A stretch of DNA of 44,820 bases. Source: Pseudomonadota bacterium. Lineage in GTDB: Bacteria; Desulfobacterota; Anaeroferrophillalia; Anaeroferrophillales; Tharpellaceae. The stretch lies in assembly GCA_011049115.1 (NCBI GenBank), contig DSCM01000083.1, forward strand, positions 1-44,820, written 5' to 3'. Positions 17,758-34,867 of this stretch are shown here, piece by piece; the first letter of the stretch is position 1, and each line of letters starts with the position of its first letter. Below the pieces are notes generated by a model that did no database searches, was not told the origin of the DNA, and saw only the letters and a list, made by a program, of their open reading frames with translations. Both the position numbers and the translations under genes were made by a program.

Positions 17758-17953
17758 AGCAAATGCCTATCTTGAGCAAGATGGCCGGGAAAACTTGGTT
17801 ATGGAGGGGGTTTATATTCTGAAACCCGAGGGAGGCAAGATTCTGCTGGAAAATATTTTCGGGGAACAAAAACTTGTTGATGCCGCACTCCGTCGCATCT
17901 CCCTGATGGAGCACAAAATCATTTTAGTACCTGACAGTTCATTCTCGGTTTAA
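17750..17953 (+). CDS. cooT: CooT-family nickel-binding protein
   Basis: A 67-residue protein of the CooT family, small dimers that bind nickel through an N-terminal Cys and were first studied in carbon monoxide dehydrogenase maturation. The conserved MCEANAYL start (Cys2), the central GGKILLENIFGEQKLV and the terminal MEHKIILV are all present. The start lies inside the end of the DUF3842 gene, with GAGGAG upstream. No CO dehydrogenase, hydrogenase or urease gene is in the window, so its client is unknown. Its last codons are part of an intergenic repeat copy. Confidence 0.88.
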   Translation: MCEANAYLEQDGRENLVMEGVYILKPEGGKILLENIFGEQKLVDAALRRISLMEHKIILVPDSSFSV

Positions 17954-18056
17954 AAAACAAGAAGATGAACTGATGAGAGTGCTTCTTTGTGACCAGCGGA
18001 AGCTCCGTCAGGTGCGGGCCGACAAGGCCGTTTGGGTTGGGGGGCTTATTCCCGCA
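17915..18056 (-). repeat. dispersed intergenic repeat, copy C
   Basis: Read on the minus strand this stretch matches the repeat copy at 34749-34867 in order and along most of its length. Shared parts are a TGCGGGA..TAA block, CGGCC..CGGCCCGC, then ACTCT-ATCAG, TTCTTGTTTTT, AAACCGA and AATGAACTG. It carries about 22 extra bases in the middle. It overlaps the 3' end of cooT, including the stop codon. Confidence 0.7.
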
Positions 18057-18068
18057 TTCGAGTGAAGT

Positions 18069-29252: not shown

Positions 29253-29556
29253 TTTCTCCTTGAGCCGGCATGCGGCTTTTTCGCTGCTTGTAAAGCAAGA
29301 TACCGAGGTGACTGGTTACGGATGGCTTCGTAACGGCTCCATCTTCTTCTGTTACTGCTGGTGCGGGTATAATCCCGCAACCTCATTGCCGCTTTTCGGT
29401 CCGCGAAGAAGAGCGCTAAATTATCACGATTCGCACCTGGCGTGAATGCGCGCAAAAGCCGTGCCGGGTTGATGAAAGTCGGCGATTGGCTTTTCCGGGA
29501 ATGGGGCGAGATGTGGTTTCTACAGGCCGATTTTAGGGGCCGTGAGATTATAGAGC
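29253..29556. other. non-coding divergent region between mocA and tRNA-Ser
   Basis: Reading direction changes here. Besides a repeat copy at 29362-29411 I see no gene that looks real: the open frames are short, lack ribosome sites and run across the repeat. The mocA promoter (minus) and the tRNA promoter (plus, 29557 onward) should lie in or next to this stretch. Confidence 0.5.
29362..29411 (+). repeat. dispersed intergenic repeat, partial copy A
   Basis: The first 21 bases match the start of copy B at 34749 at 19 positions, including the hairpin GCGGG-N6-CCCGC. A shorter CGG-CCGC-AA block follows, as in the other copies. The second half of the repeat (TTCTTGTTTTT and AATGAACTG) is not recognisable here. 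Confidence 0.55.
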
Positions 29557-34748: not shown

Positions 34749-34867
34749 TGCGGGAGTAATCCCGCAACCAAAATGGGGGCCTTCACGGCCCGCAAATAAG
34801 TACTCTTATCAGAACATTTTCTTGTTTTTAAAACCGAAAATGAACTGATGAGGTGCTATAAAATTGA
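34749..34867 (+). repeat. dispersed intergenic repeat, copy B (argF-argG gap)
   Basis: It is composed of a small hairpin GCGGG-N6-CCCGC, a GGGGCC..GGCCC block, and a larger imperfect hairpin whose arms are 34803-34820 and 34837-34853 around CTTGTTTTTAAAACCG. The same order is seen inverted at 17915-18056 (copy C) and in part at 29362-29411 (copy A). It fills most of the gap inside the arg cluster and could act as an attenuation or stability element. Confidence 0.72.

Follow-up and report, generated by a model that had tools for sequence, protein, structure and literature searches.

What is the repeat that recurs three times in the window, the whole stretch of 44,820 nucleotides analysed here, and that runs into the 3' end of cooT? 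The first-pass annotation described it as a dispersed family with an internal inverted repeat, free of genes and distinct from insertion sequences. A profile built on the leftmost 52 nt, with a training set that excluded the third copy (the left fragment), scored 43, 39 and 22 bits on the three copies, against 10.8 bits for the best match in 50 Markov-1 sequences of the window's length. This bears out the three copies, whose coordinates we refined (Table 1). The proposed order of shared blocks also holds: CTAA, hairpin A, AACCC, a CGGCCCGC box, an optional hairpin, CAAATAAG, a long terminal hairpin and CTAA. The internal inverted repeats, the lack of a gene inside and the distinction from classical insertion sequences were likewise judged right. 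The gene names cooT, argF, argG and mocA are those of the first-pass annotation, cooT and argG being judged by eye only. Its picture of a dispersed, gene-less family stands, but it overlooked that the units are mobile, have exactly defined ends and modular hairpins, target a tetranucleotide and form head-to-tail arrays.

Table 1. Positions of the repeat units, their parts and the overlapped gene in the window
Feature	Position	Strand	Remarks
cooT reading frame, 67 aa	17750..17953	+	codons 59-67 and stop (17924-17953) are repeat sequence
Full unit, flanks CGAA (left) and terminal CTAA (right), one extra hairpin module	17924..18060	-	overlaps the cooT 3' end
Left fragment of unit (hairpin A and degenerate B box)	29358..29422	+	upstream of tRNA-Ser
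Full unit with flanking target CTAA	34745..34861	+	argF-argG gap; type II right hairpin; right end slightly decayed, GTGCTATAA
Hairpin A, TGCGGGAGTAATCCCGCA	34749..34766	+	left end, directly after the target tetranucleotide
Hairpin B, GGGCCTTCACGGCCC (the CGGCCCGC block of the first-pass annotation)	34777..34791	+	
Conserved TAAG, 5' foot of right hairpin	34797..34800	+	candidate guide for the terminal CTAA; putative role
Right terminal hairpin, AGTACTCTTATCAG...CTGATGAGGTGCT	34799..34857	+	

Finding no further copies in the genome had been named among the results that would speak against a family. This was clearly not the outcome: BLAST searches returned 73 pieces at about 40 loci of the source genome (2.64 Mb in 143 contigs, 97.4% complete), and 36 copies could be delimited. 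An internal 25-mer, with up to 3 mismatches allowed, matched 35 times in this genome, against 0 for the reversed control. It was present in 20 of the 22 genomes of the class, with 1 to 821 copies each, and was absent from all 377 genomes sampled elsewhere in the phylum; the reversed control gave zero in every genome. In one genome, units make up about 3% of the sequence. A looser BLAST search gave a single weak match outside the class (G043, E 1.7e-4). The family is confined to one class of uncultured bacteria. Exact matches occur in named public MAGs, including WFRP01 (S015_14), JAOZRP, JAADEO, JANTFH, JAFGVI and MUKC01; such draft MAGs break at repeats. The phage, plasmid and viral contigs searched contained no unit, and the open-licence literature yielded papers on REP and IS200 elements, none describing this hairpin family.

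The unit extends from TGCGGG to GGTACTAA and sits 3' of a YTRA tetranucleotide. It is about 110-160 nt long, reaching about 280 nt with extra hairpin modules. Read in the orientation of the 34745 copy, YTRA is followed by hairpin A (TGCGGG-AATAAT-CCCGCA), AACCCAAA and a variable arm with the CGGCCCGC box (hairpin B). The right part comprises 0 to 4 extra hairpins of CACCCAGGGGCAATCCGCTGGTCG type, CAAATAAG, a long right hairpin (AGTRCTC-TTATCAG ... CTGTAAG-GYACT), whose tips are of at least four module types, and an AA end. A subset of units in the source genome (L021:1502-1731, L015, L016, L022, L025, L038, L039) carries an optional 68-nt double-hairpin module (GCCCAGCAGAGCTGGATAAGTTTC...GAAACTT) between CTTATCAG and AACATTTT.

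Hairpins are present near both ends, and folding is strong, with z-scores of about -5 to -8.7 for full units relative to shuffles and only -1.9 for the decayed copy at cooT. The compensatory hairpin changes anticipated in the first-pass annotation were found at the base of the right stem, where the basal R:Y pair is A-T in 184 units, G-C in 44 and A-C or G-T (mismatch or wobble) in 33. The signal is modest: the A-T to G-C exchange goes partly with module type, and most pairs of hairpin A are nearly invariant. RNAalifold on a mixed-type MAFFT alignment was uninformative, 3' modules of unequal length having been forced together. A hammerhead-like CTGATGAG in the 34745 copy had no Rfam match and was judged to be due to chance. 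TAAG occupies the right-hairpin foot in 257 of 270 units, a proportion somewhat inflated by the public-record set, which was picked with a pattern overlapping the TAAG region.

The insertion rule emerges from the comparison of empty and filled sites in S015_14. This genome contains a host repeat of ~240 bp with inverted ends GTAACTATTCAG/CTGAATAGTTAC, about 20 copies of which are empty and read GTTGCAATG-CTAA-TGGGCTCCCGC or GTTGCAATG-CTGA-TGGGCTCCCGC. Filled sites read GTTGCAATG-CTRA-[unit]2-3-TGGGCTCCCGC. In all 14 right junctions, the four bases immediately preceding TGGGC are CTAA; the filled host repeats may derive from few original insertions. One filled site (L175, +5401) combines a left CTGA with a right CTAA. 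Among 281 units delimited across all genomes, with right ends located by a pattern tolerating only some variants, a left CTGA went with a right CTAA 13:0, and the only concordant end pairs were CTAA/CTAA. The left tetranucleotide is, therefore, the target, and the right CTAA belongs to the unit. With a CTGA target, only the left junction reads CTGA and the right one reads CTAA, so that insertion creates no second copy of the target; the unmatched ends rule out a target-site duplication. Away from arrays, the left target profile is C.88 T.09 / T.93 / A.88 G.11 / A 1.00. The family is mobile: its units insert 3' of YTRA, with a left end TGCGGG, a right end formed by their own CTAA and an unduplicated target.

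The same ~240-bp repeat, itself non-coding and presumably IS66-like, both hosts units and inserts into them (L097:985-1362, L130:4602-5007, L139, L183, L049; S015_14 / G010). Two of its insertions into units are flanked by 8-bp duplications (GCTTGTTT, AACTGTCG).

Once inserted, CTAA becomes the point at which additional units join head to tail. In S015_14, where 227 units were delimited, 72 same-strand neighbours share exactly these 4 bases, against a single pair at another offset within 60 bp. Array neighbours are on average 74.5% identical and random pairs 73.8% (p = 0.84). Since adjacent units resemble each other no more than randomly paired ones do, arrays grow as unrelated units insert at CTAA junctions, and tandem duplication is ruled out as their source.

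These ends recall a known mode of transposition. In the IS200/IS605 scheme, a target tetranucleotide flanks the left end, a final tetranucleotide closes the right end, and guides lie at the feet of the hairpins (PMC6006769); the end rules have also been published elsewhere (PMC8266576). Like non-autonomous derivatives of these elements, with ends of the IS608/ISDra2 kind, the unit has terminal hairpins, a retained left target tetranucleotide, a right tetranucleotide of its own, no duplication and a candidate guide at the foot of its right hairpin. We consider it probable (roughly 60%) that this repeat represents a mobile, non-autonomous hairpin unit with the ends and insertion rule of single-strand (HUH/Y1, IS200/IS605-like) transposition, served by an enzyme acting in trans. 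The transposase would act on folded single strands, cutting after YTRA on the left and after CTAA on the right. The cut ends would then be joined, and the CTAA|TGCGGG junction of the arrays resembles the expected circle junction; the joined unit would reinsert after a new YTRA. Pairing with the conserved TAAG would position the terminal CTAA. An enzyme working in trans may since have been lost from the source genome.

The pairing behind this scheme is partial. TAAG is complementary to three of the four CTAA positions, namely 1, 2 and 4. Left targets start with C or T (pairing as G-C or G.T), are strict at positions 2 and 4 and vary at the third between A and G only, otherwise fitting TAAG pairing. 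No left guide tetranucleotide was found in the unit, where hairpin A abuts the target and leaves no room for one. Further observations count against the single-strand reading. The third target position is confined to R instead of being free, and a lagging-strand bias was not seen: the replication-orientation (GC-skew) test gave a weak skew (73/185) with a sign opposite to the lagging-strand expectation, confounded by gene direction. The unit also departs from IS608 and its relatives in its different tetranucleotide, its lack of a left guide, its modular hairpin inserts, its mixed head-to-tail arrays at CTAA and the lack of a Y1 gene in its genome. No related element combining a Y1 (TnpA) gene with the same ends was found in the available, incomplete drafts, so we do not file the unit as a member of IS200/IS605 but only as working like one.

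The search for the enzyme covered several families. A PF01797 (Y1 transposase) search had no match in the source genome, at 97.4% completeness, and detected Y1 genes in 12 of the 21 other genomes of the class; several unit-bearing relatives, all draft genomes, had none. The RAYT-like Y1 genes examined (L070-L084) mostly have GGGGACAG-type inverted ends. No unit occurs in the 1.5 kb flanks fetched around the Y1 and RAYT-like genes examined in relatives, and their unrelated ends rule out these RAYT/IS200 genes as the partner. Across the orphan ends examined, no unit copy carrying its own transposase was found; these ends are truncations, diverged ends or host-repeat insertions. Genes of IS91 type (PF04986) occur in a scattered fashion without linkage to units, and the same holds for reverse transcriptases (PF00078), which include one group II intron-like maturase and one gene likely of DGR type (named by eye, without a family search). 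The partner may have been lost, may lie in the few percent missing from the genome or may come from another family. In one relative (L216:815-3421, G009:C40), the unit most similar to the source-genome type has a DGR-type-looking reverse transcriptase gene and a RAYT gene no more than 5 kb away, in a stretch that is possibly a horizontally acquired region.

It is conceivable, though considerably less probable than Y1-type transposition, that the same insertion rule is executed by an enzyme outside Y1/HUH, such as another single-strand nuclease, a recombinase or an unrecognised family. Unit-rich genomes without a detectable Y1 gene would fit this, as would the unit's lack of a left guide and the unrelated flanks of the single Y1 gene in the 821-copy genome. 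However, the end rules match those of IS200/IS605 closely, and the gap is accounted for just as well if the enzyme has been lost or is missing from the draft assemblies. Only tentatively do we suggest a new class-specific mobiliser, distinct from the recognised Y1/REP transposases, that would read the hairpin-plus-CTAA end, build the mixed CTAA arrays and have filled ~3% of one genome.

REP-like hairpins fill many bacterial genomes; their movement is mostly inferred, and clean empty and filled sites are rare. Like REPs, REPINs and TnpA-REP (RAYT) REPtrons, the unit is high-copy, intergenic, non-coding and lineage-restricted, with a tetranucleotide beside a hairpin foot. It differs from them in its tag (YTRA/CTAA, not GTAG (GTRG) or CGTC), in its size (several hairpins in 110-160 nt, against 20-40 nt for REPs) and in forming head-to-tail arrays rather than inverted pairs. 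BOX and other modular intergenic repeats are short gene-less units with modules in variable number. The unit resembles BOX in both respects, but an exact tetranucleotide insertion rule is specific to the family studied here. CGTC-tagged REPs are tagged palindromes that occur in abundance although no transposase is dedicated to them (PMC3733652), a situation that the unit shares while differing in tag, size and architecture. Also unlike REPtrons, none of the RAYT genes examined is flanked by the unit; the RAYT-like genes of the class, mostly with unrelated GGGGACAG-type ends, match the TIRYT kind described previously (PMC3733652). Because its ends are exact, its target follows a rule, a guide is predicted and young insertions number in the hundreds, the family makes the spread of high-copy bacterial hairpins directly testable, and the range from 0 to 821 copies within one class should let genome comparison reveal the mobiliser.

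Strong folding (z down to -8.7), some covariation and a mostly intergenic location, with 0 of 18 tested source-genome copies inside ORFs of at least 100 aa, could also suggest a cis-acting RNA element or an sRNA family that is kept for regulation and whose copies spread by recombination. We regard this as improbable given the exact insertions into host repeats, the mixed arrays, the lineage-specific presence and the lack of a fixed orientation relative to genes; Rfam covariance models gave no match above threshold for the unit. The copy between argF and argG, two same-strand genes, has no terminator-like tail on their strand. Units may, nevertheless, affect mRNAs as a side effect. Least probable is a MITE moved by a DDE transposase with a 4-bp target duplication, for instance an IS5-group enzyme (IS5-group elements have CTAR targets): most copies do have CTAA on both sides, but the unit lacks terminal inverted repeats (left TGCGGGA, right TTAGTACC in reverse complement), and unmatched end tetranucleotides, including CTGA and CTAA at a site with a known empty form, already contradict it.

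The left end of all units has a further property: TGCGGG has two possible partners, the CCCGCA next to it and the CCCGC(A) in the B box, and, judged from these complementarities, the end could switch between two folds.

At cooT, the claim that the repeat includes the stop codon and has shaped the gene end was upheld. The unit, on the strand opposite to the gene, provides residues 59-67 and the TAA. In 11 relatives of the class, CooT ends at 60-68 aa with short unrelated tails and no repeat, and the presence of the unit at this locus differs among relatives. CooT is, thus, a protein whose end was contributed by a non-coding repeat.
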